Assembly (NCBI RefSeq): GCF_000620085.1
Contig: NZ_JHVJ01000004.1
Span: 263,387-327,386, forward strand
DNA: 64,000 nucleotides
Direction: 5' to 3'
From: Marinobacterium jannaschii DSM 6295
Lineage (GTDB): Bacteria > Pseudomonadota > Gammaproteobacteria > Pseudomonadales > Balneatricaceae
Shown: positions 18,548 through 42,270 of the stretch, one piece after another
Layout: each line of letters starts with the position of its first letter
Numbering within the stretch: position 1 is the stretch's first letter
Position numbers and translations under genes: made by a program
The notes under the pieces: generated by a model
What the model was told of the DNA's origin: nothing
Database searches by the model: none
The model's input: only the letters and a program-made list of their open reading frames with translations

Positions 18548-18557
18548 TGGTATACCA
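18548..18557. promoter_or_regulatory. upstream operator core TGGTATACCA (BCCT gene)
   Basis: Perfect palindrome TGGTATACCA, the same core as the downstream operator. Its centre lies 42 bp (four helical turns) from the centre of the 18589-18600 site, so both face the same side of the DNA. This fits cooperative binding or looping by a dimeric GntR/FCD repressor. Confidence 0.7.
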
Positions 18558-18573
18558 GTCTGGTTTGGTTGAT

Positions 18574-18603
18574 TTGAGTTTTTGGTACATGGTATACCAT
18601 AAT
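18574..18603 (+). promoter_or_regulatory. promoter with embedded operator, BCCT gene
   Basis: Minus-35 TTGAGT (18574-18579), 18-bp spacer, minus-10 CATAAT (18598-18603). The palindrome ATGGTATACCAT (18589-18600) covers the spacer and part of the minus-10 box, so a bound protein would block RNA polymerase. The same arrangement occurs at 20905-20934 and 36127-36156. Confidence 0.7.
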
Positions 18604-18705
18604 ACCGAAGGCGCTCTTCAATCTGTGCTTGTATCGTTCGCCACCGAGGCCAGGCGGACGTTGACGAGCCTTAACCAAACAAAAACAAAAAGGGAGCATT
18701 GCGAT

Positions 18706-26887: not shown

Positions 26888-27002
26888 TGTTATCTCACTC
26901 GTTTAAAGAAGGTCACAGTATACGCGATTAATATAAGTGAGGAGGAGAGAGGGGGAAAAAGTAAGTTGCTGGCTACGGCAAGTGTAGCCAGCAGATAGGG
27001 GG

Positions 27003-27557
27003 TTACTGCATAAAATGCACAGTGCCGTCTTCGGAACAGCCCATATAGATACCGAAGACGCCGCGATCCTTCTCTTCGATGTAGCGTTGCAGGATATCTT
27101 TGATGGCCGGATAAAATATATTTTCCCAGGGGATCTCATCCGGCGCCAGCATCGCGACTTCGGCCGTTTCCGGGCCGGGATCATCGCTGAATTCGATCAG
27201 CCGGGCACGAAACATGATGTAGACCTCATCAATCTGCGGCACGCTGAAGATGGAGTAAGGGGCGCGGATATCAACCTGGGCGCCGGTCTCTTCCCAGACC
27301 TCACGTCGGGCTGCCTCTTCGACGGTTTCACCGCATTCCATAAAACCTGCCGGGAGGGTCCAGCTACCGGGACGGGGTTTGATGGCGCGTTTGCACATCA
27401 GGTACTTGCCGTTGTCCTCGACAATACAGCCAGCGATTACCCGGGGGTTATGGTAGAAGATCTTTTCACAGTCATTACAGACCAGGCGGCGGTGGGTATC
27501 GCGGCCCGGTGAGCGGAGCACCAGGTTGGCGCTACCGCACTCGGAACAATATTTCAT
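27003..27557 (-). CDS. NUDIX hydrolase with N-terminal zinc ribbon
   Basis: A 184-residue protein: CxxC zinc ribbon pairs at residues 4-7 (CSEC) and 28-31 (CNDC), then a NUDIX domain with box GFMECGETVEEAARREVWEE (residues about 75-94) followed by TG. It resembles the NudC-like/ADP-ribose-type NUDIX enzymes that cleave nucleoside diphosphate derivatives; the substrate is unknown. I chose the ATG at 27557, which has AGGA eight bases upstream; a longer frame begins inside the GntR gene. It follows that gene after 40 bases on the same strand. Confidence 0.85.
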   Translation of the reverse strand: MKYCSECGSANLVLRSPGRDTHRRLVCNDCEKIFYHNPRVIAGCIVEDNGKYLMCKRAIKPRPGSWTLPAGFMECGETVEEAARREVWEETGAQVDIRAPYSIFSVPQIDEVYIMFRARLIEFSDDPGPETAEVAMLAPDEIPWENIFYPAIKDILQRYIEEKDRGVFGIYMGCSEDGTVHFMQ

Positions 27558-27597
27558 CTGACTCATCCTGGCTGCCGGGCCGGGAAGGATGAGAGGC

Positions 27598-28365
27598 TTA
27601 ACCGATCTGCGGGAAATCAACCTGCAGCGGCGAGCGGATCTCGACCTGAGCGGGGGCGGTGTCACCCTGCTGCTCGGCCAGTACCTTCAAGGCAACGTCG
27701 GCGGCGCGTTTAATATGCTCAAGGCAGGCAGCATGCGCTTTGGCCGGGTCGCGGGTCTTGATCGCTTCCACAATGTCGGCCATCTCGGCGCTGCTGTTCT
27801 TATAACGGTTATTCTGGGAGACGGAAGTGGCCCGCAGGAAGCTGATACGCGCCTGCAGCTGGCGCAGGAAGTTGCAGGCGGCGCTGTTGCCGCAACCTTC
27901 AAACAGGACATCGTAGAAGGCGGTTACGGCTTCAAGGATCGGGACTATCTCGCCAGCTTCCAGTCGTGAATGCAGCTTGCGCAGTGCGTACTCCAGATCC
28001 AGGATCTGCTCGTCACTGGCACGCACCGTAAACAGTTCGATGATCATGCACTCCAGCGAGCAGCGCAGTTCGTAAATCTCGCGGGCATCTTCCATAGTGA
28101 TAATGGCCACGCGTGGGCCTTTACCTTCCATATAGTCCACCAGGCCTTCGGATTCCAGATGACGCAGCGCTTCGCGAACCGAGGTACGGCTGACCCCAAG
28201 CAGATCACAGAGATCCCGTTCTACCAATCGATCGCCAGGCAGCAGTTGAAAGTTGAGAATGGCATTGCGCAGGGCGTTTAATACCTTCTCACGAAGAGTC
28301 ATTGCTGTGCGTTCGATTTTGACGGAATCGCCAAGGGGCTGTCGCTGCATCATAATGTTATCCAT
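27598..28365 (-). CDS. GntR family (FCD) regulator, probable repressor of the betaine catabolic regulon
   Basis: A 255-residue GntR-type regulator. The winged helix covers residues about 22-88 (LVERDLCDLLGVSRTSVREA), followed by an all-helical FCD effector domain with metal-binding-type Asp/His positions. It is the last gene of the catabolic operon that starts at 33806. FCD regulators bind palindromes of the type TGGT-N2-ACCA; UxuR/ExuR-like members use TGGTATACCA itself. That is exactly the motif found before four transcription units in this window, so I infer it is their repressor, with a pathway intermediate as inducer. The short window does not show a site directly upstream of its own gene. 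Confidence 0.85.
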   Translation of the reverse strand: MDNIMMQRQPLGDSVKIERTAMTLREKVLNALRNAILNFQLLPGDRLVERDLCDLLGVSRTSVREALRHLESEGLVDYMEGKGPRVAIITMEDAREIYELRCSLECMIIELFTVRASDEQILDLEYALRKLHSRLEAGEIVPILEAVTAFYDVLFEGCGNSAACNFLRQLQARISFLRATSVSQNNRYKNSSAEMADIVEAIKTRDPAKAHAACLEHIKRAADVALKVLAEQQGDTAPAQVEIRSPLQVDFPQIG

Positions 28366-28411
28366 AAAACTAAAAAGTCACCGGCACTCGGGCAGAGCGG
28401 CGGTGGGCCTG

Positions 28412-28801
28412 TTACTTAGCATCGGCTGCATCCTCTTCTGCGAATACGGCCTTAGCGACCCGGAAGCTGTCGATGGCAGCCGGTACGCCACAATATATTG
28501 CAGTCTGCAGCAGAACTTCGCGAATCTCTTCACGACTCAGACCGTTGTTGAGGGCGCCACGCACATGCAGCTTTAGCTCATGTGGGCGGTTCAGTGCTGT
28601 AATCATGGCCAGGTTGATGATGCTCCTCATTTTAAGGGATAAGCCATCGCGCTTCCATACGGTTCCCCAGCAGTATTCGGTCACCAGCTCCTGCAGCGGC
28701 ATGGTGAAGTCATCTGCGTTCTCAAGGCTAGCGTTGACGTACTCTTCGCCCAGCACCTGACGGCGGATCTCCAGGCCCTGCTCAAATTTTTCCGAAGCCA
28801 T
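28412..28801 (-). CDS. carboxymuconolactone decarboxylase-like protein
   Basis: A 129-residue protein of the CMD/AhpD-like fold. The C-terminal core ELKLHVRGALNNGLSREEIR then LLQTAIYCGVPAAIDSF matches gamma-carboxymuconolactone decarboxylase, including the conserved Glu and Cys region. PcaC decarboxylates a lactone in the protocatechuate pathway. Here it is the penultimate gene of an operon otherwise resembling trigonelline catabolism, which has a hydroxybutyrolactone intermediate and releases CO2, so action on a lactone or on a beta-carboxy acid is conceivable. This is inference; no such gene is required in the published TgnA-E scheme. Confidence 0.8.
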   Translation of the reverse strand: MASEKFEQGLEIRRQVLGEEYVNASLENADDFTMPLQELVTEYCWGTVWKRDGLSLKMRSIINLAMITALNRPHELKLHVRGALNNGLSREEIREVLLQTAIYCGVPAAIDSFRVAKAVFAEEDAADAK

Positions 28802-28873
28802 TTTCTATCTCCTCTGTTTTCTTGGCAGATGGGAAAGGGGCCGTCGCCATTGCATAGCGCCAGCCCCGGCAGA

Positions 28874-30316
28874 TCAGATGCCGCCCATCATCAGGTATTT
28901 GATCTCGACATAGTCATCGATGCCGTACTTGGAGCCTTCGCGGCCCAGGCCCGACTGCTTGATTCCGCCGAACGGCGCCACGGTCGTGGAGATAATGCCC
29001 TCGTTGATACCGACCATGCCGTACTCCATGCCTTCACCGACACGCCAGGCGCGCCCGAGGTCTTTGGTGTAGACGTAAGCGGCCAGACCAAACTCGGTAT
29101 CGTTGGCCATCGCGATCGCTTCCTCTTCGCTGCTGAAGCGGAACACCGGGGCCAGCGGACCGAAGGTCTCTTCACGGGCAACTTTCATCTCAGTCGTTAC
29201 GCCGCTGATTACCGTGGGTTCGAAGAAAGTGCCACCGATCTCGTGACGCTTACCACCGATTGCGACGGAGCCGCCTTTGGCGATGGCATCGGCCAGGTGG
29301 TCTTCTACCTTGGCGACGGCTGCTGCGTTGATCAGCGGGCCCTGATTGACGCCAGCGTCGAAGCCGTTACCGACCTTCAGTTCAGCCACGGCCGCGCTCA
29401 GCTTCTCGACGAACTGGTCGTAGATACCGTCCTGTACCAGGAAACGATTGGTGCAGACGCAGGTCTGGCCGGCATTACGGAATTTTGATGCCATTGCGCC
29501 ATCGATAGCGGCGTCGATATCGGCATCATCGAACACCACGAAGGGGGCGTTACCACCGAGCTCCATGGAGACTTTCTTCACGGTGTCGGCGCACTGGCGC
29601 AGCAGTAGCTTGCCGACGTTGGTGGAGCCGGTGAAACTGAGCTTGCGGACCTTGTCGTTGCCGGTCAGTTCGCCGCCGATGGCGATGGCATCACCGGTAA
29701 CCACGCTGAAGATACCAGCCGGAATGCCGGCTTCTTCGGCCAGCGCGGCCAGTGCCAGTGCTGAAAACGGGGTGTCTGGCGCTGGTTTGACAACAAATGG
29801 ACAACCCGCCGCCATAGCCGGACCACATTTGCGGGTGATCATGGCATTGGGGAAGTTCCAGGGAGTAATTGCCCCGACAATACCGATTGGCTGTTTGACC
29901 ACCACCACCCGGGCACCGGCCTTATGGCTCGGAATAACATCGCCATAGATACGCTTGCCCTCTTCGGCAAACCATTCGATAAAGCTGGCGCCATACATTA
30001 CCTCGCCCTTGGCCTCAGCCACCGGCTTACCCTGTTCCAGGGTCAGGATCTCGGCCAGTTCATCGGCGTGGGCCACCATCAGCTCATACCAGCGGCGCAG
30101 CACGCTGCTACGTTCCTGCGCGGTACGTGCGGCCCAGGCTTTCTGGGCTTCTTCGGCGGCATCTATAGCCTGACGGGTTTCTTCGGCACCGAGCATCGGT
30201 ACGCTGCCGATCTTTTCACCGGTGGCGGGGTTGAAAATCTCTTGTACTTCACCGTTGGCTGCGTCAATCCAGCGGCCGGCAACGTATGCCTGTTGGCGGA
30301 AAAGGGTCTTGTTCAT
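28874..30316 (-). CDS. NAD(P)-dependent succinate-semialdehyde dehydrogenase (TgnE-like)
   Basis: A 480-residue aldehyde dehydrogenase of the succinate-semialdehyde group. Catalytic Glu in MELGGNAPFVVF (near residue 250) and Cys in GQTCVCTNRF (near 284; the second Cys two residues later is typical of SSADH/GabD). ATG start; length equals GabD. In the trigonelline pathway TgnE oxidises succinate semialdehyde, the product of the hydrolase, to succinate for the TCA cycle. The operon position between flavin reductase and CMD-like genes supports that role here. A close glutarate-semialdehyde preference cannot be excluded. Confidence 0.88.
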   Translation of the reverse strand: MNKTLFRQQAYVAGRWIDAANGEVQEIFNPATGEKIGSVPMLGAEETRQAIDAAEEAQKAWAARTAQERSSVLRRWYELMVAHADELAEILTLEQGKPVAEAKGEVMYGASFIEWFAEEGKRIYGDVIPSHKAGARVVVVKQPIGIVGAITPWNFPNAMITRKCGPAMAAGCPFVVKPAPDTPFSALALAALAEEAGIPAGIFSVVTGDAIAIGGELTGNDKVRKLSFTGSTNVGKLLLRQCADTVKKVSMELGGNAPFVVFDDADIDAAIDGAMASKFRNAGQTCVCTNRFLVQDGIYDQFVEKLSAAVAELKVGNGFDAGVNQGPLINAAAVAKVEDHLADAIAKGGSVAIGGKRHEIGGTFFEPTVISGVTTEMKVAREETFGPLAPVFRFSSEEEAIAMANDTEFGLAAYVYTKDLGRAWRVGEGMEYGMVGINEGIISTTVAPFGGIKQSGLGREGSKYGIDDYVEIKYLMMGGI

Positions 30317-30370
30317 TTATTTTTATCTCTTAGAGTCCAATCAATCGGTGTGGCGGCGGAAACAGGCTGA

Positions 30371-30862
30371 TCAGTCTGTCAGCGTTGCCCAGTCCGCCAT
30401 CTTGCCGCGGCAATACACCATCGGTGAGCGTGCTTCGTTTACGTTGGCCTGTTCCATCTTGCCGATCAGGATGGCGTGATCGCCGCCCTCATACTCCTTC
30501 CACAGGCTGCACTCAATGGTGGCAACGGCACCGTCAATCAGCGGCGTGCCGAATTCGCTGCGGGTGACCGCCACGTCGGCGATGGCCGCGGTCTTGGCTT
30601 CGCCTTTTTTCGCAAAGGCAAAGCAGGGGCCGGTCTGGTCGGCGGCCAGGATATTGATGGCGAAGCGTGAGGCTTCACGCAGGACCGGATAGGAGTCGGA
30701 GCTGTAGTTCGGGCATACCAGAACCAGGGCCGGGTCCATCGACAGGGCACTGAACGCGCTGGCCGTGAGACCGGTGACAGCGCCGTCGTCGTCATAGGCG
30801 GTTACCACGGTGACGCCGGAGGGAAAGGATCCCAGAACCTGCTTGTACAAATCTTCGTTCAT
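30371..30862 (-). CDS. flavin reductase (TgnB-like)
   Basis: A 163-residue protein of the flavin-reductase-like FMN-binding split-barrel family (FPSGVTVVTAYDDDGAVTGL, then SALSMDPALVLVCPNYSS). Such proteins use NAD(P)H to reduce FMN or FAD, which diffuses to a separate oxygenase. The partner here is most likely the luciferase-like monooxygenase at 34970-36007, since no other flavin monooxygenase is visible. In Acinetobacter the equivalent pair is TgnA/TgnB. It follows the aldehyde dehydrogenase gene after 18 bases. Confidence 0.88.
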   Translation of the reverse strand: MNEDLYKQVLGSFPSGVTVVTAYDDDGAVTGLTASAFSALSMDPALVLVCPNYSSDSYPVLREASRFAINILAADQTGPCFAFAKKGEAKTAAIADVAVTRSEFGTPLIDGAVATIECSLWKEYEGGDHAILIGKMEQANVNEARSPMVYCRGKMADWATLTD

Positions 30863-30880
30863 GCTGAGATACTCCTACGC

Positions 30881-32359
30881 TTAGCGCATTACAAATGGGT
30901 CGGCCATCGGTTCGCTGGACAGGTTGATCCAGACCGTTTTGCGTTCGGTGTATTCCAGCACGGAGTCGATGCCGCTCTCTCGACCGTAGCCGGAGCTCTT
31001 AAAACCACCGATCGAGCCCATGGCAGAGACAACGCGATAGGTATTGACCCAGATAATGCCGGAATGCACATCACGGGCGACGCGGTGGGCGCGGGCGATG
31101 TCTCGGGTCCAGATACCGGCAGCCAGGCCGTACTGGGAGTCGTTGGCCATGGCCAGCGCTTCCTCTTCGGTTTCGAACGGAATCACTGCCGCCACCGGAC
31201 CAAATACCTCTTCCTGCATCAGGTAGTCGGCATTGCTGCTGCATTCAAAGATCGTCGGTTCGTAGTACCAGCCCTGATCGACATCCGGGCGCTTACCACC
31301 CAGACGCAGGCGAGCCCCTTCGGCCTGCGCGCGTTCGACAAAGGATTCCACCACGGCCAGCTGCTGGGCGGTGGCCATCGGCCCCATTTCGCTTTCGTCA
31401 GCCTGCGGGTTACCGATCTTGATGCGGGACGCGCGTTCTACCAGCGCGTTGATTACCTGCTCATAGACATCTTTGTGCACCAGTAAACGGGATCCGGCGA
31501 CGCAGCTCTGGCCAGAGGCGGCAAAGATGCCCGCAACGATCCCGTTTACCGCGCTGTCCAGGTCGGCATCAGGGAAAACGATCTGCGGTGACTTACCGCC
31601 CAGTTCCAGTGACAGTTTGGCGAAGTTTTCCGCCGAGCTGCGGATCACGTGCCTGGCGGTTGCCGCACCACCGGTAAAGGCGATCTTGCGTACTTTCGGA
31701 TGACTGGTCAGCGCTGCACCGGTACTCGGACCGTAACCGGTGACGACGTTGATCACACCTTTAGGAATACCGGCCTGTTCGGCCAGCTTTACCAGCTCAA
31801 TCAGGGTGGCAGACGCGTGCTCGGACGGCTTCAGGACGATTGTATTGCCGGCCGCCAGAGCCGGGGCTACTTTGATGGCCGTCAGGTAGAGCGGGCTGTT
31901 CCAGGGGATGATGGCGGCCACGACACCCAGCGGCTCGCGGATGGTATAGGCCAGCATATCCTGCTTATCCAGCGGCAGGGTTTCCCCCTCGATCTTGTCA
32001 GCGAGTCCGGCGGTATAATAGAAGAATTCCGGCAGGTAGCTGACCTGACCGCGGGTCTCGCGGATCAGCTTGCCGTTATCGGTACTTTCCAGCTGGGCCA
32101 GGGTTTCGGTATTAGCGGCAATCAGGTCGCCCAGCTTACGCAGCAGTTTGCCGCGTGCGGTTGGGGTCAGGCTGCGCCATTCGGCGCTGCGGAAAGCGGT
32201 ATCCGCGGCTTCCACCGCGCGATTGACATCTTCGGCGCTGGCATCGGGGAACTGTGCCCAGGCTTCGCCGGTCGCAGGGTTCAGGCTATCAAAGGTGTTG
32301 CCCGAGATGGCGTTGGTCCATTCGCCGCCAATACACATCTGAAACTGTTGCAGGCTCAT
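30881..32359 (-). CDS. aldehyde dehydrogenase (TgnC-like)
   Basis: A 492-residue NAD-dependent aldehyde dehydrogenase. Motifs: NSPLYLTAIKVAPALAAGNT, catalytic Glu in LELGGKSPQIVFPDADL and catalytic Cys in GQSCVAGSRLLV (near residue 299). I chose ATG at 32359, which overlaps the hydrolase stop as TGATG; the preceding codon is a TTG. In trigonelline breakdown TgnC oxidises the (N-methylformamido)methylene hydroxybutyrolactone to the succinate derivative. The operon company makes that or the homarine counterpart the likely reaction; sequence alone gives only the family. Confidence 0.85.
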   Translation of the reverse strand: MSLQQFQMCIGGEWTNAISGNTFDSLNPATGEAWAQFPDASAEDVNRAVEAADTAFRSAEWRSLTPTARGKLLRKLGDLIAANTETLAQLESTDNGKLIRETRGQVSYLPEFFYYTAGLADKIEGETLPLDKQDMLAYTIREPLGVVAAIIPWNSPLYLTAIKVAPALAAGNTIVLKPSEHASATLIELVKLAEQAGIPKGVINVVTGYGPSTGAALTSHPKVRKIAFTGGAATARHVIRSSAENFAKLSLELGGKSPQIVFPDADLDSAVNGIVAGIFAASGQSCVAGSRLLVHKDVYEQVINALVERASRIKIGNPQADESEMGPMATAQQLAVVESFVERAQAEGARLRLGGKRPDVDQGWYYEPTIFECSSNADYLMQEEVFGPVAAVIPFETEEEALAMANDSQYGLAAGIWTRDIARAHRVARDVHSGIIWVNTYRVVSAMGSIGGFKSSGYGRESGIDSVLEYTERKTVWINLSSEPMADPFVMR

Positions 32360-33189
32360 CAAGAGGCCTCCTCGCTAGAAGGTTGAGTGCTGTAGACAGC
32401 TGACAGGAAGCTGAGCAGCTTCTCGTTTACCCGTTTCGGGGATTCCATCGGCATCATGTGACGTTCATCGTCGATGACGCAGGCTTTGGCATTTGGGATC
32501 AGGGCGGCCATATCGCGTGCCATCTGTGGCGTCGAGCCCGGATCCAGCTCGCCGGTCATCACCAGCGTCGGGGCCTGAATCTCTTTCAGCTGGTCAACCA
32601 TATAGTTGTCTTCGCTGGCGAACAGCTGATAGGTCTTCAGGTAGCCCTGATGGTCATTGCTGAGAACACGGTTACGCACCGCATTGATCTGGGCCGGGCT
32701 GGAGGCCGCATACTCTTCGCTGAACCAGCGTTTCAATGCGGTTTCCACGTTCGCCGCCGGGCCTTTGATCGCAACCTCCCGGGTACGGGCCATCACGCCG
32801 CTGCGCTGTTCCTCGGTGCGATTGAATACACTGTTAAGGATCACCAGTCCGTTCAGGTACTGTGGGTAGTGCAATGCAAAGGCGCGGGCTACGAGCCCAC
32901 CCATGGAGAAGCCAATCACCAGTGCTTTCTCCAGTCCCAGGTGGTCCAGCAGCTCCTTCAGCTGAGTGGCGTACTCCTTCAGACAGGTATCGTCGCCGGG
33001 TATGGCGCTGTCACCGTGGCCCAACATGTCGTAGGCGATAATCTGATAGGAGGGGGACAAGCCAACCAGCTGTCCGCCCCACATGGATTTATCCAGCCCT
33101 ACGCCATGAATCAGCACCACCGGCGCCCCTTCACCCTGCACCAGATAACTGGTGCCGGCAGGGGTTTTAAAGTGGTTAATGCAGGTCAT
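32359..33189 (-). CDS. alpha/beta hydrolase (TgnD-like)
   Basis: A 276-residue alpha/beta-hydrolase. Oxyanion segment VVLIHGVGLDKSMWGG, nucleophile elbow GFSMGG (Ser near residue 98), Asp in TGELDPGSTP and His in DDERHMMPME. In the known trigonelline route TgnD hydrolyses (N-methylformamido)methylene succinate to succinate semialdehyde, methylamine, formate and CO2; the order hydrolase, aldehyde dehydrogenase, reductase, SSADH here suits that. A RutD- or PcaD-like hydrolase is the alternative reading from family membership only. It follows the DUF1185 gene after 14 bases. Confidence 0.85.
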   Translation of the reverse strand: MTCINHFKTPAGTSYLVQGEGAPVVLIHGVGLDKSMWGGQLVGLSPSYQIIAYDMLGHGDSAIPGDDTCLKEYATQLKELLDHLGLEKALVIGFSMGGLVARAFALHYPQYLNGLVILNSVFNRTEEQRSGVMARTREVAIKGPAANVETALKRWFSEEYAASSPAQINAVRNRVLSNDHQGYLKTYQLFASEDNYMVDQLKEIQAPTLVMTGELDPGSTPQMARDMAALIPNAKACVIDDERHMMPMESPKRVNEKLLSFLSAVYSTQPSSEEAS

Positions 33190-33203
33190 GGTCTGGCTCC
33201 AGC

Positions 33204-33806
33204 TTAGTTGTTGGCGGCTTGTTCTGCTTCTTCAGCCAGCGATTTCAGGTCTTCGTAGCGGTTACCGATACGTGGGTGTACACGGCCGCCATCAGACGCG
33301 CCCAGGCAGATCACCAGCTCATCTGCGGCAGGAGCATCTTCGATCGCCATTTCCAGGGTGATGTAGTGAGAACGGAAGCCTTCGTCATCTTTGTGCATCA
33401 TCGGGATCTGAATGGAAGTGCCAGGACCGCCACGCTTGTTGGTAAATGCCAGGTAGCTCTGAGCGTCAACGGCGTTGCGGTAGTGGTTACCAAAGCGCAG
33501 GGTATGAACCACTGCAGAGGCATGCTCGATTTCACCTTCGGCACCAACAACAGCCGCCTTACCGTAAGCTTCGATGTTGGCTGTACCGCCAATGTACTTG
33601 CCGACATATTCCACTATCAGGGCACCCAGGTCGGAGCAGCTGGCTTTGATTTCAGGACTCAGGTCTTCAACAAAACCACGACCATGCCACGGGTTCTTGA
33701 TGATGGCTGCTACGCCGACCATGGTGACTGGCTTCTCCGCTGCCTTACCACCCTCGATACGGGTTTCTTCAATGGTGGTAACGATTTTGCGAATTTCAAA
33801 GCTCAT
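33204..33806 (-). CDS. amino acid synthesis (DUF1185) family protein
   Basis: A 200-residue protein of the family named Amino acid synthesis or DUF1185 (PF06684), whose biochemical role is unknown. Recognised from IRKIVTTIEETRIEGG at the N-terminus, NPWHGRGFVEDLSPEIKA, and the C-terminal CLGASDGGRVHPRIGNRY. It is the first gene of the catabolic operon, next to the operator at 33947, so it is very likely a pathway enzyme, perhaps acting on a ring-opening amide or lactone. The conserved His/Asp/Arg residues suggest catalysis rather than binding, but this is a guess. Confidence 0.8.
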   Translation of the reverse strand: MSFEIRKIVTTIEETRIEGGKAAEKPVTMVGVAAIIKNPWHGRGFVEDLSPEIKASCSDLGALIVEYVGKYIGGTANIEAYGKAAVVGAEGEIEHASAVVHTLRFGNHYRNAVDAQSYLAFTNKRGGPGTSIQIPMMHKDDEGFRSHYITLEMAIEDAPAADELVICLGASDGGRVHPRIGNRYEDLKSLAEEAEQAANN

Positions 33807-33946
33807 CGGTGTTTCCCTCTGTAACTGTCTTTTCGGTATGAAAGGGCTTACAGCCCCATCTCTTTTTATGCAGGCACCCGGGTGCCGGAGTTGGTCAGGC
33901 AGGTCAGTGTCAGTTGAAACTAACTGGCTTTGGTCTGCGCTGTAAT

Positions 33947-33958
33947 ATGGTATACCAT
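33947..33958. promoter_or_regulatory. operator ATGGTATACCAT between DUF1185 operon and GlxA-like gene
   Basis: Fourth unit with the palindrome, in the 262-base divergent region. Toward the plus strand it extends to ATGGTATACCATAATA; toward the operon a possible minus-10 CATATT (33944-33949) is present, but a clear minus-35 is not. The site could control either gene or both. Confidence 0.7.
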
Positions 33959-34068
33959 AATATAGTACAGCGTCGTCACCGATTGCAATCGCAATTGATT
34001 CAGTGATGAGACTGGACCAAATCAGTATTGCGCTCTGGTTGTATGGCTGAGCAGGTAGGGGGGTATAA

Positions 34069-34887
34069 GTGAACCAATCGGTATCGACGGCAGAGGTTGC
34101 GGCAACGGAGATTGTCGTCCTGCTTTATCCGCGCTTTGTGATGAGCGACTTGTTAACTGTCACTAATTGGTTGAGCAAGGCCAATGAGATCAGTGCCAAT
34201 GGCGAGCTTCAGCGGACGCTCTTTCACTGGCGCCTGTGCTCGAATGAAGCGCCGCTGGTCGTAGCTGATAACGGCATGGTACTCAGCACCCTGGCCGATC
34301 CGGCTGCTCTGGATCGGGTTGATCAGCTGATCGTACTGGGCGCAGAGGTGCAGGAGAGTATGCAGAGCTTGGCCCGGCTGGGGTGGGAGCAAGTACCGGT
34401 CATTGAGCTTACGCAGCCCAAGGTGCTGAGAGATGATCGGGTTGCGTCACCTGCCGCGGTAGCTGAAAAGATGGCTGCGTTGGTTGTGCCTAGATTGTCT
34501 CCGGCGCAGGCAGAGCGACTGCTTGCCCAGTGCTCAATCCAGGGACCGCTGGGGCAGGTGAATGTGGATGATGGTCGCGTTCATCGTGCCTTACAGCTGA
34601 TGCAGCAGAATCTGCGTAAGCCGCTGAAGAATTGCCAGATCGCTGAGAAAGCTCACCTATCGGTCCGCCAGCTGGAGCGGCTCTTCCGGCGCTACTTTGA
34701 TGAGACGCCGGCGCGATACTACCTGCGGATCCGACTGCAATCGGCACGCAGGCAGTTGCAGGAAGGGAGTCGTAGTGAGCATGATGTCGCACTGGCCTGC
34801 GGTTTTGCTTCACTGGCCTATTTTCGCAAACAATATAAGGCACGCTTTGGTATCACTCCGGGTTACGAAGCGGAGGCCGCCCGCTGA
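34069..34887 (+). CDS. AraC family regulator, GlxA-like with reduced DJ-1 domain
   Basis: A 272-residue regulator. The C-terminal hundred residues form the AraC double helix-turn-helix (LSVRQLERLFRRYFDETPAR, then CGFASLAYFRKQYKARFGIT). The N-terminal part (EIVVLLYPRFVMSDLLTVTN) resembles the DJ-1/PfpI domain of GlxA-type regulators but is shorter and lacks the usual Cys elbow. GlxA-like proteins often govern catabolism of betaines and quaternary amines (for example GbdR, CdhR). The gene starts with GTG and diverges from the catabolic operon across the operator at 33947; it may be an activator of the pathway. Ends at a shared terminator. Confidence 0.85.
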   Translation: MNQSVSTAEVAATEIVVLLYPRFVMSDLLTVTNWLSKANEISANGELQRTLFHWRLCSNEAPLVVADNGMVLSTLADPAALDRVDQLIVLGAEVQESMQSLARLGWEQVPVIELTQPKVLRDDRVASPAAVAEKMAALVVPRLSPAQAERLLAQCSIQGPLGQVNVDDGRVHRALQLMQQNLRKPLKNCQIAEKAHLSVRQLERLFRRYFDETPARYYLRIRLQSARRQLQEGSRSEHDVALACGFASLAYFRKQYKARFGITPGYEAEAAR

Positions 34888-34915
34888 GCGTAGACGGCGC
34901 AAAAAATCCAGAGAG

Positions 34916-34953
34916 CAATAAGATAGCCCGGCTTTTGCCGGGCTATCTTATTG
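34916..34953. terminator. bidirectional terminator
   Basis: A 17-bp perfect stem (CAATAAGATAGCCCGGC on the left arm, 34916-34932) with a TTTT loop and matching right arm to 34953. It lies between the convergent ends of the GlxA-like gene and the monooxygenase gene. A/T-rich ends serve both directions. Confidence 0.9.
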
Positions 34954-34969
34954 GGTTGTGCTGTCGCTG

Positions 34970-36007
34970 TTATTTGAACGCAGGCATTACCTGGTCGATA
35001 AACAGCTGCAGAGACTTCTTCTTCTCTTCATGGGAAAGGCTGTTATCAGACCAGAAGCTGTACTCGGTAACGCCCAGCTCCTCATAGCGCTTCAGGCGCT
35101 CAATGACCTGTTCCGGTTTGCCGATCATCAGATTATTGCGCAGTACTTCCGGCGCAAAATCGGCCATCTCATCTAGCTCAGCTTCACTTATTGGCTGGCA
35201 GAAGCCATTTTGAGGTTCCTGGTCGTTGCGGAACCAGCCCTGGAAGTAGGAGTACCAGCGGCGGATGCCGTTAACACCGGTTTTCCAACCATCTTCATCG
35301 TCATGAATATAGGTGTGGCGCAGGCACATCACTTTAGGCCGCGCTTTGTCAGGGTGTTTAGCGCAGGCTGTATGGTGCTTGTCCATCAGGTCGGCCACTT
35401 CCTCATCCGACTTAAACAACGGCGTGATCATCACATTGCAGTTGTTTGTCACCGCCATTTCATGGGATTCCGGAGAACGGGCGGCCTGCCAGATCGGCGG
35501 ATAAGGTTGCTGTATCGGTTTTGGTACTGAGGTTGAGGTTGGGAATTTCCAGCACTCGCCGTCATGGGCATAGTTGCCCTGCCACAATTTCTGCAGGGCG
35601 GGCAGCATCTCGCTGAGATACTTACCGCCATCCGCTGCAGACTCGCCGTTTAGCATGCGGTCGAACTCATATTGATATGCGCCACGGGCTATACCAAATT
35701 CAAGCCGGCCATTGCTCATGATATCGACCAAGGCCGCTTCACTGGCCAGCTTTACCGGGTGCCAGAAAGGTGCCACCACGGTGCCGGTGCCAAGGCGGAT
35801 ATTCTTTGTCAGCGGTGCCAGATAGGCCAGGAAGGAGAAAGGATTCGGACCGATGGTGAATTCCATTGCATGGTGCTCGCCAATCCAGGCAGTTTCAAAA
35901 CCTGCTTCATCCGCGATCTGAACCAGCTCTACCAGTTCGTTCATCAACTCCTGGTGTGGCTTGTCTTCATCATAGCGTTCCATCTGGAGGAATAGAGAGA
36001 ATTTCAT
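34970..36007 (-). CDS. LLM class flavin-dependent monooxygenase (TgnA-like)
   Basis: A 345-residue luciferase-like monooxygenase. TIM-barrel features: GFETAWIGEHHAMEFTIGPN (residues about 36-55), IRLGTGTVVAPFWHPVKLA, GRLEFGIARGAYQYEF. It is separately transcribed from its own promoter with an operator, convergent to nothing else of the pathway but in the same regulon as the flavin reductase operon. In Acinetobacter baylyi, TgnA with TgnB oxygenates and opens the pyridinium ring of trigonelline. I infer the same type of reaction on trigonelline, homarine or a related N-methylpyridinium acid. Family certainty is high; substrate is inference. Confidence 0.88.
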   Translation of the reverse strand: MKFSLFLQMERYDEDKPHQELMNELVELVQIADEAGFETAWIGEHHAMEFTIGPNPFSFLAYLAPLTKNIRLGTGTVVAPFWHPVKLASEAALVDIMSNGRLEFGIARGAYQYEFDRMLNGESAADGGKYLSEMLPALQKLWQGNYAHDGECWKFPTSTSVPKPIQQPYPPIWQAARSPESHEMAVTNNCNVMITPLFKSDEEVADLMDKHHTACAKHPDKARPKVMCLRHTYIHDDEDGWKTGVNGIRRWYSYFQGWFRNDQEPQNGFCQPISEAELDEMADFAPEVLRNNLMIGKPEQVIERLKRYEELGVTEYSFWSDNSLSHEEKKKSLQLFIDQVMPAFK

Positions 36008-36126
36008 GGCGTTGCTTAAACCTCTTTCTTATTTTAGCAGCCGGTTTGATGCTCTGGTCTGGCTATGGCTTAGCGCCGCCGAAACATCAGAACTAACCGG
36101 TCCGGATCTGATTAGTGAATACGCAT

Positions 36127-36156
36127 ATGATGGTATACCATAATACTGGATGTCAA
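36127..36156 (-). promoter_or_regulatory. promoter with embedded operator, monooxygenase gene
   Basis: On the minus strand: perfect minus-35 TTGACA (36151-36156), 18-bp spacer, minus-10 CATCAT (36127-36132). ATGGTATACCAT at 36130-36141 covers the spacer end and minus-10, as at the BCCT and DUF1330 promoters. Here the extension CATAATA is on the opposite strand relative to the gene. Confidence 0.7.
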
Positions 36157-36642
36157 ATTTGATCTGGAACAATTTTTTCAGGAATCTCTGCTGCGCGTTA
36201 CCGACTTGGATCGGCCTGTGGTGTTTGGCCATTGTCGGGGGAGGTCAACCCGGGGGCATGTAACTCAGAGGCATACAGTTCTATGTAATAGCGGTTTTCA
36301 TTGCATAGCCTGTCACCGGTACAGCTATTTCGGTTCAGGGTGTTGAATATGCGGAAAACAATTGGTCAGAGGTAGGGGGGGAGCAGTCGCCAAAACCTGT
36401 CCCGTCAATGCCGGTAAAGGCTAAAGGCCTGTTCGGATTGCGGCTGGTTATGCTACCGGGTCGAGCCTGTCAAATAGGGGCGGACGGTTTGGATGTGCGG
36501 GATCACTCCGGAGGGCAGGCAGTGTATCGCTCGCAGAGTCGGTGGTCCTAAGGAGGAGAGCGTAGCCGCAGCCAGGTGCTTGTCCGGAGCGCTGCTGGCT
36601 CCGGATTGTTTCAGTACTGGCTGCTACAGGCGACGGAAAGGA
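36157..36642. other. 486-base region without a gene
   Basis: Between the monooxygenase promoter and the end of the helicase gene. No open frame with coding character. A small stem TCCGGAGC / GCTCCGGA (36583-36605) lies after the helicase stop and could be its terminator, without T-run. An RNA gene cannot be excluded. Confidence 0.4.
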
Positions 36643-38019
36643 TTAACTGGCTGAAGGTTTCTTCCGCTTCATCATCGGTGCGTTGCCGTCGTCATTTATA
36701 CGTTCGGCAGCGAGTTTACGGCTGTAGCTTTTTTCCTGGCGCTTAGCCGGTTTGTTGTGCTTATCCGGACCCTGAGTTGCGGTTTTAGCGCCGTTTTTGG
36801 CCTTAGGCGTGTATTTCTTTTGCGCGGGCTTTTTCTTCGCAGCCGGTTTCAGACCTTTGAACTTAGCTTCCAGGCCTTCGACAGTGCTGAAACTGATGGT
36901 TTGTTGCAGGAATTTCTCGACCCGCTTGAAGGCATCCCAGTCTTTCGGGCCGACCAGTGACAGGGCTTCACCCTTGGTGCCGGCACGGCCGGTGCGACCG
37001 ATACGGTGTACATATTCTTCTGCCTGTTTGGGCATATCGAAATTGATCACCAGCGAGACCTGTAGCAGGTCCAGGCCGCGGGAGGCAACGTCGGTGGTAA
37101 TCAGCACCTGCTGCTGACCACGGCTGAAGCTGTCCATAATCCGGTTGCGCTCCGCCTGGCTCATATCACCGCTGAGGGCGGCCGCTTTCAGGCCGTCTTC
37201 CCGCAGCAGGCTAGCCAGTCGATCGGTGTCGGCGCGGGTGGCGGTGAAGATAATCGCCTGCTGGAAATCTTCAGTGCTGAGTATTTTGTTCAGCAGTGCC
37301 TGTTTGTGATTCAGCTGATCACAGAGATAAAAGCGCTGTTCGATATCCTGATGTTCGGCATTGGCGGCACCGACGGCGACGCGCTTAGGGGCTTTCAGCA
37401 GTTTAGCAGCCAGGCTGTCTACTTCCGCATGGTCTAACGTGGCGGAGAACATCAGGGTCTGGCGCAGACGGTGGTCTGCAGCGGTATTGATCTGTTCCAG
37501 CTCTTTGGCAAAGCCGAGATCAAGCATACGGTCAGCTTCGTCCATGATCAGCAGCTCAAGGCCGTGCAGTGTCAGCGAGCGCTTTTCCAGGTGGTTAGCG
37601 AGCCGTCCCGGTGTCGCAACGATAACCTCAGGCTCTTTGATCAGCGCCTTGATCTGGTCATTGAAATTTTCGCCACCCAGCACCAGAGCGATATTGATAC
37701 GTGAGCCGCTGGTCAGGGAGCGCAGTTGCTGGAAGACCTGCTTCGCCAGCTCGCGGGTGGGTGCCAGAATCACAGCACGGGGATCGCGTTTGCTCAGGGC
37801 ACGTGACTTCATCAGGCGCTGCATGGTTGGCAGCAGAAACGCCAGGGTCTTACCGGAGCCGGTTTTCGAAGACGCTATCAGGTCGTTACCTGCAAGTGCG
37901 GCCGGAATCGCCCGGGCCTGTATCTCGGTCGGTGTATCGATACCCATATGCTTCAGTGTATTGAGAAGGCGGGGGTCCAGTTTGAAATCGGCAAATTGCT
38001 CAGCGTACTGCGTCAACAT
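36643..38019 (-). CDS. DEAD-box ATP-dependent RNA helicase
   Basis: A 458-residue DEAD-box helicase with all core motifs: Q-motif, SSKTGSGKT (I), PTRELA (Ia), TPGR (Ib), DEAD (II, residues about 160), SAT (III), and HRIGRTGRAG (VI). The C-terminal 75 residues are a basic Lys-rich tail. The general build resembles SrmB/RhlE, which act in ribosome assembly or mRNA decay; I cannot choose between them. Single gene. Not obviously related to its metabolic neighbours. Confidence 0.92.
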   Translation of the reverse strand: MLTQYAEQFADFKLDPRLLNTLKHMGIDTPTEIQARAIPAALAGNDLIASSKTGSGKTLAFLLPTMQRLMKSRALSKRDPRAVILAPTRELAKQVFQQLRSLTSGSRINIALVLGGENFNDQIKALIKEPEVIVATPGRLANHLEKRSLTLHGLELLIMDEADRMLDLGFAKELEQINTAADHRLRQTLMFSATLDHAEVDSLAAKLLKAPKRVAVGAANAEHQDIEQRFYLCDQLNHKQALLNKILSTEDFQQAIIFTATRADTDRLASLLREDGLKAAALSGDMSQAERNRIMDSFSRGQQQVLITTDVASRGLDLLQVSLVINFDMPKQAEEYVHRIGRTGRAGTKGEALSLVGPKDWDAFKRVEKFLQQTISFSTVEGLEAKFKGLKPAAKKKPAQKKYTPKAKNGAKTATQGPDKHNKPAKRQEKSYSRKLAAERINDDGNAPMMKRKKPSAS

Positions 38020-38307: not shown

Positions 38308-38538
38308 TTAGCCGTACTGTGCTGCCAGTTCATCCACGGCTTTACGCGCCAGCGGTGTCAGCTGGCTGCCGTCGCTGTTAGCGTATGCCACGATTTGCTG
38401 TTTCATGGTACGGGCCCAGAAACGCATCAGGTGGTTGGACACAATCTGCACCGACTCGGCTTCATCGCCGTGGTGCAGGTTGTTATCGGCGATCTGATTC
38501 GCCATGTGAATGAGCTGGTCGAGTTGTGAATGACTCAT
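38308..38538 (-). CDS. fdsD: formate dehydrogenase subunit delta
   Basis: A 76-residue FdsD-type protein (SQLDQLIHMANQIADN then FWARTMKQQIVAYA). In Ralstonia/Rhodobacter-type NAD formate dehydrogenases FdsD is needed for activity, probably for cofactor insertion or stability. The start at 38538 is fixed by its ATGA overlap with the fdhD stop. Last gene of fdsGBA-fdhD-fdsD. Confidence 0.9.
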   Translation of the reverse strand: MSHSQLDQLIHMANQIADNNLHHGDEAESVQIVSNHLMRFWARTMKQQIVAYANSDGSQLTPLARKAVDELAAQYG

Positions 38539-39401
38539 TTCGCGTGTTCTCCGCAATCAGTGTCCCCGGTGCTGTGACCCGGGCTGTAGCTGACATGTCG
38601 TTGTGGTCGGGCAAAGCCGATCAGTTGCAGATTGGCATCCCGTGCCAGTCGCAGGGCAAGGCCTGTAGGGGCAGAGACGGCCACCAGGGTGCCGATACCG
38701 GCGCTGGTAACTTTCTGTACCATCTCGTAGCTGGCGCGGCTGGAGACCAGAGCGAAGCCCCGGCTCCGGTCAGTACCGCTGCTTGCCAGCGCTCCGATCA
38801 GCTTGTCCAGGGCATTGTGCCTGCCCACATCTTCCCGTACCAGCAGGATCTCGCCCTCGGCGGAGCACCATGCCGCACCGTGACAGGCGCCAGTAGCGGC
38901 CTGCAGCGGCTGGTGTTGCTCCAGCTGGTGTACGGCTTGCTGTACCGCCTCATCACTGATGGCGGCCTGACGGCTGACTTCAGTGGCGGGGCGTACGGCT
39001 TGCTGCAGCGATTCGGCGCCGCAGAGTCCGCAGCCGGTGCGACCGGTGAGGTTGCGGCGTTTCTGCTTCAGCTCGGCCTGACGCTGGGCTGAGATGGTCA
39101 ACTGCAGCCCAATGCCATCGGGATGTTCCGTTTCGTCGATCTCATAGAGTTCGGATGGTGACTGGATAATCCCTTCGGTCAGGCTGAAGCCCAGCGCGAA
39201 ATCGGACAGGTTATCCGGTGTACACATCATCACGACATGGGAGATGCCGTTGTAGACCAGTGCGACGGCGACCTCTTCGGCCACCGTATCATCGGCCTGA
39301 CTGACCTCACCATGTTGCCAGCGGCTGACCGTGACATCGCTTTTCGGCTGCATCACGATTACCTCCGGCGTCGACAATTCAGGACAGGGGCAGGCTGTCA
39401 T
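38535..39401 (-). CDS. fdhD: formate dehydrogenase accessory sulfurtransferase FdhD
   Basis: A 288-residue FdhD. It transfers sulfur from IscS to the molybdenum cofactor before insertion into formate dehydrogenase. Visible: TGRTGCGLCG with the Cys pair of the flexible loop (residues about 111-120), DVGRHNALDKLIG and LVSSRASYEMVQK. The first ATG overlaps the fdsA stop (TAATG); a second possible start 16 codons later (MQPKSDVTV) would give a more usual N-terminus. Confidence 0.92.
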   Translation of the reverse strand: MTACPCPELSTPEVIVMQPKSDVTVSRWQHGEVSQADDTVAEEVAVALVYNGISHVVMMCTPDNLSDFALGFSLTEGIIQSPSELYEIDETEHPDGIGLQLTISAQRQAELKQKRRNLTGRTGCGLCGAESLQQAVRPATEVSRQAAISDEAVQQAVHQLEQHQPLQAATGACHGAAWCSAEGEILLVREDVGRHNALDKLIGALASSGTDRSRGFALVSSRASYEMVQKVTSAGIGTLVAVSAPTGLALRLARDANLQLIGFARPQRHVSYSPGHSTGDTDCGEHAK

Positions 39402-42268
39402 TAGTGACCGGCTCCGGCAGGCTGCTGACGGCCCTTCTCCAGAAAATCAAGCTGCTGCTCGGTAAAGGCTTCGAACTGTTTCTGCCATTCGGATGGCTGA
39501 GACACTTTCTCGACCTGCACCGCAGTCACCTTGTATTCCGGGCAGTTGGTCGCCCAGTCGGAGCTGTCAGTGGTAATCACGTTGGCGCCACTTCCCGGAT
39601 GGTGGAAGGTGGTGTACACCACGCCCGGTTGCATCCGTTCGCTGACGACAGCACGCAATACGGTCTGGCCGGAGCGGCTGGTGATACCCAGCCAGTCACC
39701 GTCCTGGATGCCGCGATCTTCGGCGTCAACCGGATGTACTTCCAGTACGTCCTCGTCGTGCCATGCCTGGTTCTCGGTACGGCGGGTCTGAGCCCCGACA
39801 TTGTACTGGGACAGGATTCGACCGGTGGTCAGCAACAGTGGGAAGCGACGGTTGGAGCGTTCTTCGGTGGCCACATATTCGGTGACAGCGAAGTTACCCT
39901 TACCGATCGGGAAGTCCACTTCATGCATGATCGGCGTACCGTCAGGGTGGTCTTCGTTACATGGCCACTGGATGCTGCCCATCTCTTCCAGACGCTCGTA
40001 GCTGACGCCGGTGAAGGTCGGAGTCAGGCTGGCGATCTCATCCATGATTTCAGATGGGTGGCTGTAGTTCATTTCGTAACCCAGGGCATTGGACAGCTCG
40101 ACAGTCACTTCCCAGTCTTCCTTACCGGCCAGAGGCGGCATCACCTTGCGAACGCGGTTGATACGGCGCTCGGCATTGGTGAAGGTACCGTTCTTCTCCA
40201 GGAAGGTAGAGCCCGGAAGCAGCACGTGGGCGAACTTGGCGGTTTCGTTGAGGAAGATATCCTGTACCACCAGACATTCCAGCGCCTTCAGCGCCGCCTC
40301 AACATGCTGGGTGTTCGGATCGGACTGGGCGATATCCTCACCCTGTACGTACATCGCCTTAAAGGTACCGGCAATGGCGGAGTCGAACATGTTCGGGATA
40401 CGCAGGCCCGGCTCGTGATCCAGCTCGACACCCCAGACTTTCTCGAAGCGGCCACGGGCTTCGTCGTCGGCAACATGCTGGTAACCCGGCAGCTCGTGCG
40501 GGAAGGAACCCATATCGCAGGAACCCTGTACGTTGTTCTGACCACGCAGTGGGTTTACGCCGACACCTTCGCGACCGATATTACCGGTAGCCAGTGCCAG
40601 GTTAGCGATACCCATCACCATGGTGGATCCCTGGCTATGCTCAGTTACACCCAGACCGTAGAAGATGGCACCGTTGCCGGCTTCAGCGTAGACGCGAGCA
40701 GCTTGGCGCACATCGGCCGCCGCTACGCCGGTGATATCCTGCATGGCTTCCGGAGAGTTACGCTCTTCACGGATAAACGCCTGCCACTTCTGGAATGCCT
40801 TGTCGTCGCAACGTTCGGCGATGAACTGCTTGTCTTCCAGTCCCTCGGACATGATCACGTGTGCCAGCGAGTTAACCAGCGCCACGTTGGTACCCGGCCG
40901 CAGGGGCAGGTGGATCGCATCTTTCAGGTGCGGTGTTTTCAGCAGGTCGATCTTACGCGGGTCGGCGACGATCAGCTTGGCGCCTTCGCGCAGGCGGCGA
41001 CGCATCATGGAGCCGAATACCGGATGGGCGTCGGTCGGGTTAGCACCGATGACCAGCATGGCATCGGCATACTTAACCGAATCGAAGGTCTGGGTACCGG
41101 CGGATTCACCCAGGGTGGTCTTCAGGCCATAGCCGGTCGGGCTGTGGCAGACACGGGCGCAGGTATCGGTGTTGTTGTTACCGAAACCGGCACGGATCAG
41201 TTTCTGAACCAGATAGGTCTCTTCGTTGGTACAACGGGAGGAGGTGATACCCCCGATGCTCTCGCGACCGTACTTAGCCTGGACCTCTTTCAGGCGGGTC
41301 GCGGCGAAGGAGATCGCTTCTTCCCAGCTGACTTTACGCCAAGGCTGATCGATGGAGTCACGAATCATCGGCTCCTTGATACGGTCCTTATGGGTGGCAT
41401 AGCCGAAGGCAAAGCGACCTTTGACACAGGAGTGACCCTGGTTCGCCTCACCGCCCTTGTAAGGCACCATGCGCACAACCTGGTCGCCCTTCATATCAGC
41501 TTTGAAGGAGCAGCCAACACCACAGTAGGCACAAGTGGTCACAACACTGTGCTCTGGCTGGCCCATATCGATCACGTTGTTCTCGATCAGTGTCGAGGTC
41601 GGGCAGGCCTGAACACAGGCACCACAGGAGACACAGTCGGAATCGAGGAAGTCTTCATCCTGGCCGGCAGCGATCTTGGAATCGAAACCACGGCCATCGA
41701 CGGTCAGTGCGAAGGTACCCTGTACCTCTTCACAGGCACGGACACAGCGGGAGCAGACGATACATTTGCTCGGATCGAAGGTGAAGTACGGGTTGGACTT
41801 GTCCTTTTCCGCTTCCAGGTGGTTGTTACCCTCGAAGCCGTAACGGACTTCGCGCAGGCCAACCGCACCGGCCATATCCTGCAGCTCGCAGTCACCGTTG
41901 GATGGACAGGTCAGGCAGTCCAGCGGGTGGTCGGAGATGTACAGCTCCATGATGTTGCGGCGCAGCTTGCCCAGCTTTTCATTCTGGGTGGTTACCTTCA
42001 TACCCTGCTCGGCAGGGGTGGTGCAGGACGCTGGCAGGCCGCGACGGCCATCGATCTGTACCGCACAGAGACGGCAGGAACCGAAAGCGTCCAGGTTATC
42101 GGTGGCGCACAGCTTAGGGATATTGATATCAGCCAAGGCTGCGGCGCGCATCACGGACGTGCCTTCAGGTACGCTGATCTCGACGCCGTCGATCTCCAGC
42201 GTTACCTGCTTTTCAGACAGGCTGGCCGGTGTACCGTAATCTTTATTAGGGTCAAAGTACTGAAGCAT
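39401..42268 (-). CDS. fdsA: NAD-dependent formate dehydrogenase subunit alpha
   Basis: A 955-residue molybdenum/tungsten enzyme. In order: a 2Fe-2S domain (CRLCAV near residue 65), a His-Cys 4Fe-4S region, two ferredoxin clusters (CIVCSRCVRACEE and CVSCGACVQACPT), a 4Fe-4S site before the catalytic domain (CAYCGVGCSFK), and the active-site segment RVCHSPTGYG with Cys, not selenocysteine. It oxidises formate to CO2; electrons go through FdsB to NAD. Cytoplasmic, no Tat signal. Co-transcribed with fdsG, fdsB, fdhD and fdsD. The unusually long open frame on the opposite strand is a codon-bias shadow. Confidence 0.95.
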   Translation of the reverse strand: MLQYFDPNKDYGTPASLSEKQVTLEIDGVEISVPEGTSVMRAAALADINIPKLCATDNLDAFGSCRLCAVQIDGRRGLPASCTTPAEQGMKVTTQNEKLGKLRRNIMELYISDHPLDCLTCPSNGDCELQDMAGAVGLREVRYGFEGNNHLEAEKDKSNPYFTFDPSKCIVCSRCVRACEEVQGTFALTVDGRGFDSKIAAGQDEDFLDSDCVSCGACVQACPTSTLIENNVIDMGQPEHSVVTTCAYCGVGCSFKADMKGDQVVRMVPYKGGEANQGHSCVKGRFAFGYATHKDRIKEPMIRDSIDQPWRKVSWEEAISFAATRLKEVQAKYGRESIGGITSSRCTNEETYLVQKLIRAGFGNNNTDTCARVCHSPTGYGLKTTLGESAGTQTFDSVKYADAMLVIGANPTDAHPVFGSMMRRRLREGAKLIVADPRKIDLLKTPHLKDAIHLPLRPGTNVALVNSLAHVIMSEGLEDKQFIAERCDDKAFQKWQAFIREERNSPEAMQDITGVAAADVRQAARVYAEAGNGAIFYGLGVTEHSQGSTMVMGIANLALATGNIGREGVGVNPLRGQNNVQGSCDMGSFPHELPGYQHVADDEARGRFEKVWGVELDHEPGLRIPNMFDSAIAGTFKAMYVQGEDIAQSDPNTQHVEAALKALECLVVQDIFLNETAKFAHVLLPGSTFLEKNGTFTNAERRINRVRKVMPPLAGKEDWEVTVELSNALGYEMNYSHPSEIMDEIASLTPTFTGVSYERLEEMGSIQWPCNEDHPDGTPIMHEVDFPIGKGNFAVTEYVATEERSNRRFPLLLTTGRILSQYNVGAQTRRTENQAWHDEDVLEVHPVDAEDRGIQDGDWLGITSRSGQTVLRAVVSERMQPGVVYTTFHHPGSGANVITTDSSDWATNCPEYKVTAVQVEKVSQPSEWQKQFEAFTEQQLDFLEKGRQQPAGAGH

Positions 42269-42270
42269 GA

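Follow-up and report, generated by a model that had tools for sequence, protein, structure and literature searches.

The window analysed here is a stretch of 64,000 nt from contig NZ_JHVJ01000004.1 of Marinobacterium jannaschii DSM 6295. It carries a gene of the DUF1185 family at the head of a putative pyridine ring-cleavage operon, which raises the question of what such a protein contributes to the pathway. The gene (33204–33806, minus strand) is a single intact frame of 200 aa with an ATG start. In a profile search its product matched PF06684 (AA_synth, formerly DUF1185) above the gathering score, with 222.9 bits against a cut-off of 27 (E 2.5e-66) and coverage of profile positions 1–175 of 175. 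As the initial annotation had stated, it heads the operon, being the first of seven same-strand genes with short or no gaps; it is followed in order by genes for an alpha/beta hydrolase, an aldehyde dehydrogenase, a flavin reductase, a succinic semialdehyde dehydrogenase (SSADH), a carboxymuconolactone-decarboxylase-like protein (CMD), and a GntR regulator. The oxygenase gene lies upstream of DUF1185 and outside this unbroken run, with an AraC-family gene on the plus strand in between. A comparable cluster is found on a plasmid of Acinetobacter sp. PK01, where tgnA, tgnB, and tgnC are annotated, DUF1185 and alpha/beta hydrolase genes lie directly upstream, and SSADH and CMD genes lie downstream. 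The features of the window are as follows (percentages are identities to the PK01 proteins):

27598–28365, minus strand: GntR/FCD regulator, with FCD and GntR domains
28412–28801, minus strand: PcaC-like CMD (TIGR02425, 157.3 bits, barely over the cut-off of 155.7; 74.0%)
28874–30316, minus strand: SSADH, TgnE-like (TIGR01780, 740 bits, cut-off 646; 63.7%)
30371–30862, minus strand: single-domain flavin reductase, TgnA-like (Flavin_Reduct, 136.6 bits; 42% over 131 aa to TgnA)
30881–32362, minus strand: aldehyde dehydrogenase, probable TgnC orthologue (Aldedh, 584 bits; 51.2% to annotated TgnC)
32359–33189, minus strand: alpha/beta hydrolase, TgnD-like and PcaD-related (Abhydrolase_1, 111.4 bits; 34.8%)
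33204–33806, minus strand: DUF1185/AA_synth protein, TgnF-type, 200 aa (PF06684; 52.6%; in the oxygenase-linked clade)
34069–34887, plus strand: AraC-family regulator, divergent, between DUF1185 and the oxygenase (HTH_18, 75.4 bits)
34970–36007, minus strand: luciferase-like flavin monooxygenase (LLM), probable TgnB orthologue, presumed to cleave the ring (Bac_luciferase, 207.6 bits; 52.6% over 344 aa to annotated TgnB)

A promoter scan of 33100–36500 gave two sites against a shuffle mean of 2.6 and hence no excess, and nothing within 27000–37000 reached the Rfam gathering score. Downstream of the operon are a BCCT transporter, a RibB-like protein (recognised by eye), and a dimethylglycine-dehydrogenase-like FAD/GCV_T protein (18547–20340, 21045–22154, and 23797–26364); RibB-like genes, again by eye, recur beside the operon in Pseudomonas loci. 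Upstream of the oxygenase, a formate dehydrogenase-like gene set was recognised by eye at 38535–44321, and would suit a release of formate.

According to the excerpts of PMC7913881, the DUF1185 homologue of Acinetobacter baylyi ADP1 is TgnF, and the 2018 trigonelline paper is cited there for a stimulation of TgnE-dependent oxidation of succinic semialdehyde (SSA). Because TgnF has already been named, the premise of the initial annotation, a published trigonelline scheme without any step for this family, fails on this second-hand report. The window protein shares 52.6% identity with the DUF1185 of the PK01 tgn cluster. Both stand alongside counterparts of TgnB, TgnC, and the hydrolase, and both fall in one clade with support of 100/99; the SSADH and CMD are shared as well. 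Judged by these similarities, the window gene is very probably the TgnF orthologue of a trigonelline-type (N-methyl-pyridine-3-carboxylate) pathway. The likeness to TgnF is drawn through PK01, whose tgn names are database annotations, and not through the ADP1 sequence. The two clusters differ in gene order and in the flavin reductase, which is short in the window (163 aa) whereas the PK01 TgnA has 310 aa. Trigonelline is presumed to be the substrate of the oxygenase on the basis of its 52.6% identity to the annotated TgnB. The suggestion that DUF1185 might instead mark another substrate, such as homarine, is not supported, as the PK01 orthologue lies inside an annotated tgnABC cluster and an SSADH gene is present in the window; a literature search for a homarine degradation operon gave matches titled on choline, trimethylamine, and glycine betaine.

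A link between DUF1185 and TgnA-like enzymes, which the initial annotation had proposed to look for by a survey of genomes, was borne out for the TgnB-type oxygenase. Among 398 genomes of the phylum, DUF1185 was found in 59 and the oxygenase (E<=1e-40) in 23, and all 23 oxygenase holders also had DUF1185. The two genes were on the same contig in every case, within 2 kb in 18 genomes, within 5 kb in 20, and within 18 kb in all 23. The hypergeometric chance of such a co-occurrence is 1e-21 if kinship is ignored, and the 23 genomes span 19 genera. This survey comprised 84 DUF1185 places, with the context taken from 60 fetched regions. In 96 related genomes, the oxygenase (E<=1e-30) was present in nine and DUF1185 in 13, with a DUF1185 identity of at least 55% in all nine oxygenase holders and of 34–40% in the other four; in two of the nine the genes were apart (33 kb in G379, and on separate contigs in G412). 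A scan of named genomes covered the best 80 of at least 590 DUF1185 loci, mostly from Pseudomonas, with neighbours taken within about 9 kb. The hydrolase, aldehyde dehydrogenase, flavin reductase, and GntR regulator were matched in all of these best 80 loci, CMD in 65, the oxygenase in 27, and an SSADH-like gene in 24 (four of them below 50% identity). When 18 of the 53 oxygenase-less loci were followed up, each of the 17 genomes that could be checked in full had one oxygenase match (E<=1e-30, 57–59% identity).

Plasmids gave a similar picture. The oxygenase query returned 419 records and the DUF1185 query 388; a DUF1185 gene was nearby in all eight examined oxygenase records at 43–57% identity, and was absent from one record at about 29%. 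Thirteen of 60 evenly sampled plasmid oxygenase rows were below 34% identity and were treated as non-orthologues. In a tree of 114 DUF1185 rows (identical rows removed), all 43 oxygenase-linked rows fell in one 53-row clade with support of 100/99, in which two long Arthrobacter rows are placed unsurely. Rows had been kept at a minimum of 150 aa and 40 bits, which gave 116 rows from 10 of the 80 named-genome loci plus other loci; this filter lost one of the two DUF1185 genes in each of L232, L256, and L278, and L258 was left out as a repeat of L215. In one genome of 2.0 Mb (G047), a DUF1185 gene of the TgnF clade lies with a flavin reductase and an aldehyde dehydrogenase gene and with no hydrolase gene alongside (L018, 7373–10403), and no oxygenase match was present in the whole genome.

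The oxygenase, the aldehyde dehydrogenase, DUF1185, and the alpha/beta hydrolase were each present in all 22 oxygenase-linked loci other than the window; the hydrolase count includes three genes that were absent from the first annotation and were found by tblastn. DUF1185 adjoins the hydrolase in 20 of these 22 loci, and is a few kb off in the other two (L219 and L220). In contrast to these core genes, CMD was found in nine of the 22 loci, and SSADH (at least 48% identity) in one. At the same threshold, SSADH was found in none of 24 loci with a 6-hydroxynicotinate reductase. As SSADH is mostly absent near DUF1185, a dedicated role as a TgnE/SSADH partner is unlikely, and DUF1185 more likely serves a step near that of the amide hydrolase.

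DUF1185 paralogues of other clades occur in a different setting, together with molybdenum hydroxylase subunits, a Pfam-less protein, UPF0280, and an amidohydrolase. The amidohydrolase matches the enamidase 2vun (E 7e-109), and on two plasmids a relative of the Pfam-less protein carries the annotation 6-hydroxynicotinate reductase, its gene immediately adjoining those for UPF0280 and two DUF1185 proteins. Enamidase homologues (E<=1e-50) were found in 19 of the 398 genomes, and in each of the 19 a DUF1185 gene shares its contig at less than 15 kb, the greatest distance being 14 kb. Of 25 enamidase plasmid records, 11 were examined, and seven had DUF1185 and four did not. All nine of the looser enamidase-like plasmid genes (40–45% identity) were examined; DUF1185 was adjacent in five (Thermomicrobium, Agrobacterium vitis, Mariluticola, Shinella, and Mesorhizobium), two of which also had SSADH. 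A six-frame profile search of the 17–19 kb around the remaining four (two from Rhodococcus, one from Prescottella, and one from Haloarcula) gave no DUF1185. A tandem DUF1185 pair is present in at least 10 of the 24 6-hydroxynicotinate-reductase loci, the filtered count of seven being too low. All 24 loci also have a UPF0280 match, and where the reductase is annotated, UPF0280 is its immediate neighbour. This association of other DUF1185 clades with enamidase and 6-hydroxynicotinate reductase is the new point of the survey; the locus in the window is not itself new, its gene being an orthologue of the published helper TgnF.

The nicotinate-cluster proteins thus resemble the window protein in belonging to the same family and in standing by a hydrolase with a known relative that forms an alpha-formyl dicarboxylate, but they belong to other clades, often form a tandem pair, and have no LLM oxygenase beside them. 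Eubacterium barkeri reduces 2-formylglutarate rather than decarboxylating it. The product of enamidase is (S)-2-formylglutarate according to the excerpts of PMC9304392 and PMC7356986, and the nicotinate route of Azorhizobium runs via glutarate according to those of PMC3511419. Since 2-formylglutarate has six carbons and glutarate five, one carbon must leave. We know of no gene for this Azorhizobium-type decarboxylation, nor of an enzyme for the shared step from an alpha-formyl dicarboxylate to a semialdehyde. In the trigonelline route, as the 2018 abstract reportedly describes it, the hydrolase step should leave 2-formylsuccinate, from which loss of CO2 gives SSA.

These parallels suggest that DUF1185 handles an aldehyde-acid intermediate common to both routes. 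In the window pathway, the oxygenase would cleave the pyridine ring, and the aldehyde dehydrogenase would produce an N-formyl-enamine diacid, from which the alpha/beta hydrolase would free formate and methylamine, leaving 2-formylsuccinate (or its enamine). DUF1185 would then promote the tautomerisation of 2-formylsuccinate and its loss of CO2, yielding SSA for the dehydrogenase, and its paralogues in the reductive nicotinate route would convert 2-formylglutarate to glutaric semialdehyde. The two routes have in common a step that turns an alpha-formyl dicarboxylate into a semialdehyde, and the gene that they have in common is DUF1185, which is for this reason proposed for the step. While pathway membership and co-occurrence are observed, it is from the shared context that we infer the chemistry, and we put the probability that DUF1185 promotes the tautomerisation or decarboxylation of 2-formylsuccinate (or 2-formylglutarate) to the semialdehyde at roughly one in three. 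More tentative is the wider reading in which the family as such would consist of alpha-formyl dicarboxylate decarboxylases, or decarboxylation-promoting tautomerases, common to the non-homologous oxidative (TgnB, 2-formylsuccinate) and reductive (6-hydroxynicotinate reductase/enamidase, 2-formylglutarate) pathways. A stimulation of SSA oxidation by TgnF, as quoted from the 2018 paper, fits a faster supply of SSA.

Several observations argue against a decarboxylase. The 2018 abstract is said to list CO2 among the products of the hydrolase step, in the absence of TgnF, and to have a conserved hypothetical protein assist the SSA dehydrogenase; since CO2 is listed at the hydrolase step, the decarboxylation may be spontaneous. 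Eighteen of the 59 DUF1185 genomes have neither the oxygenase nor the enamidase, four of the nine looser plasmid enamidase-like genes have no DUF1185, and the TgnF-clade gene of G047 has no oxygenase. The TgnF report, as quoted in PMC7913881, concerns SSA oxidation and not CO2 release. Furthermore, HcdD of Pseudomonas mandelii 7HK4 is, like the window protein, a PF06684 protein encoded in a ring-opening catabolic operon, but its pathway has a coumarin substrate (7-hydroxycoumarin), and its authors, in the excerpts of PMC7913881, saw no stimulation or other effect of it. This coumarin-type DUF1185, in whose pathway there is no alpha-formyl acid, does not fit the proposed chemistry. Additionally, the CMD protein is another candidate decarboxylase (present in 65 of the best 80 of at least 590 loci and in nine of the 22 oxygenase-linked loci).

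Alternative roles can be placed around the amide hydrolase step. The chorismate-mutase-like fold of DUF1185 relatives resembles that of the RidA family, and a luciferase-like oxygenase, a flavin reductase, and an alpha/beta hydrolase form the cast of the Rut pathway of uracil breakdown, which the operon shares (the window hydrolase hits RutD with 85.9 bits, under the cut-off of 238.5). DUF1185 could thus be a RutC-like enamine (imine) hydrolase that converts 2-(methylaminomethylene)succinate to 2-formylsuccinate and methylamine after deformylation. That it neighbours the amide hydrolase in 20 of the 22 loci would agree with this, as would the N-CH=C(COO-) unit that both the LLM and the enamidase routes should contain, judging from the pathways. 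We nevertheless consider it unlikely. In three loci, annotated members of the RidA family lie no more than about 10 kb from DUF1185, and the window DUF1185 has no RidA-family match, with Pfam giving AA_synth alone and NCBIfam nothing. The enamidase of E. barkeri, according to the excerpts of PMC9304392, is bifunctional and performs both ring opening and deamination, so that DUF1185 persists in a setting where the enamine step already has an enzyme. DUF1185 could also be an E/Z isomerase or tautomerase that acts before deformylation, on the way from the oxygenase product to the substrate of the hydrolase. The names MFMB (Z) and MFMS (E) reportedly differ in double-bond geometry, and in an actinobacterial cluster the oxygenase adjoins a separate gene of the tautomerase family. 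However, that cluster also keeps two DUF1185 genes, so the tautomerase is no replacement for DUF1185, and DUF1185 beside the enamidase is left unexplained; this role appears improbable.

Other alternatives concern the dehydrogenases. Were DUF1185 to open 5-hydroxybutyrolactones (the TgnAB product and cyclic SSA), giving the dehydrogenases free aldehyde, the stimulated oxidation of SSA by TgnE quoted in PMC7913881 would be accounted for directly, and the coumarin-type DUF1185 of the same source is likewise part of a lactone pathway. This is of low probability, as the nicotinate/enamidase clusters have no obvious lactone and an SSADH-like gene is near only 24 of the best 80 of at least 590 loci. 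A role as a partner protein or activator for TgnE, the semialdehyde dehydrogenase, would match the wording of the published claim as quoted in PMC7913881, and the SSADH gene is within the window's own operon; yet DUF1185 is kept while SSADH is found in 24 of those 80 loci, one of 22, and none of 24, which makes an activator very doubtful. The idea in the initial annotation that DUF1185 acts on an additional intermediate is plausible, but the context favours an alpha-formyl acid past the amide hydrolase at least as strongly as the lactone or the N-formyl amide, which the initial annotation gave as examples.

If DUF1185 does promote the decarboxylation of an alpha-formyl acid, conserved residues indicate where it may do so. 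PDB relatives of the window protein are 2qtp (SPO0826, E 6e-35) and 3byq (BB2672, E 2e-21), more distant members of PF06684 that share its salt-bridge Glu/Arg and conserved His residues; by this homology the window protein would have a chorismate-mutase-like fold and may form a hexamer. An AlphaFold2 model of it was poor (mean pLDDT 54.9). Over 117 rows, R6, N38, P39, K83, E92, E94, H95, R110, P135, R145, S146, H147, D157, P159, E163, R175, R179, and several glycines show a conservation of 93% or more. E92, E94, H95, H147, R175, and R179 align with Glu90, Glu92, His93, His144, Arg172, and Arg176 of BB2672, which according to the excerpts of PMC2954203 form the salt bridges and comprise the conserved histidines in or close to a dimer-interface cavity of about 1000 cubic angstroms. 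The corresponding cavity, with Lys83, Glu92, Glu94, His95, Arg110, Arg145, His147, Arg175, and Arg179, is the candidate active site, although the BB2672 authors thought that ligand binding is perhaps rather at the other interface (PMC2954203). In the same excerpts, amino-acid metabolism was proposed for BB2672 and SPO0826 from neighbouring genes, with no activity shown.

DUF1185 also occurs in further settings. The actinobacterial cluster with the tautomerase-family gene, on an Arthrobacter dokdonellae plasmid (L262, 6353–11068), carries its two DUF1185 genes in tandem. Six loci (L041, L042, L043, L250, L251, and L257) share a cluster of a TPP enzyme, an aldehyde dehydrogenase, an SDR, a BNR protein, mostly a glyoxalase, DUF1185, an MhpA-like flavoprotein, and a hydratase/decarboxylase-like protein, and three of the six have SSADH and CMD too. 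Contexts with a zinc alcohol dehydrogenase/FAH, a GMC oxidoreductase, or an MhpA-like flavoprotein are outside the proposed chemistry. Near tgn-type loci, a small protein of the DUF1330 family is found repeatedly (L205, 10439–10795; L261, 6563–6844; L263, 5262–5552); it belongs to a sequence cluster with members in 11 loci.

Of the two compounds concerned, trigonelline is an osmolyte of plant origin, and nicotinate is a vitamin. The open-licence literature searched, in the excerpts available, assigned no chemistry to DUF1185. Overall, for a family that is still named for "amino acid synthesis", the survey gives a narrow guess of two substrates, 2-formylsuccinate and 2-formylglutarate. If it is true, DUF1185 would supply the decarboxylating step in nicotinate pathways of the Azorhizobium type and would explain TgnF.
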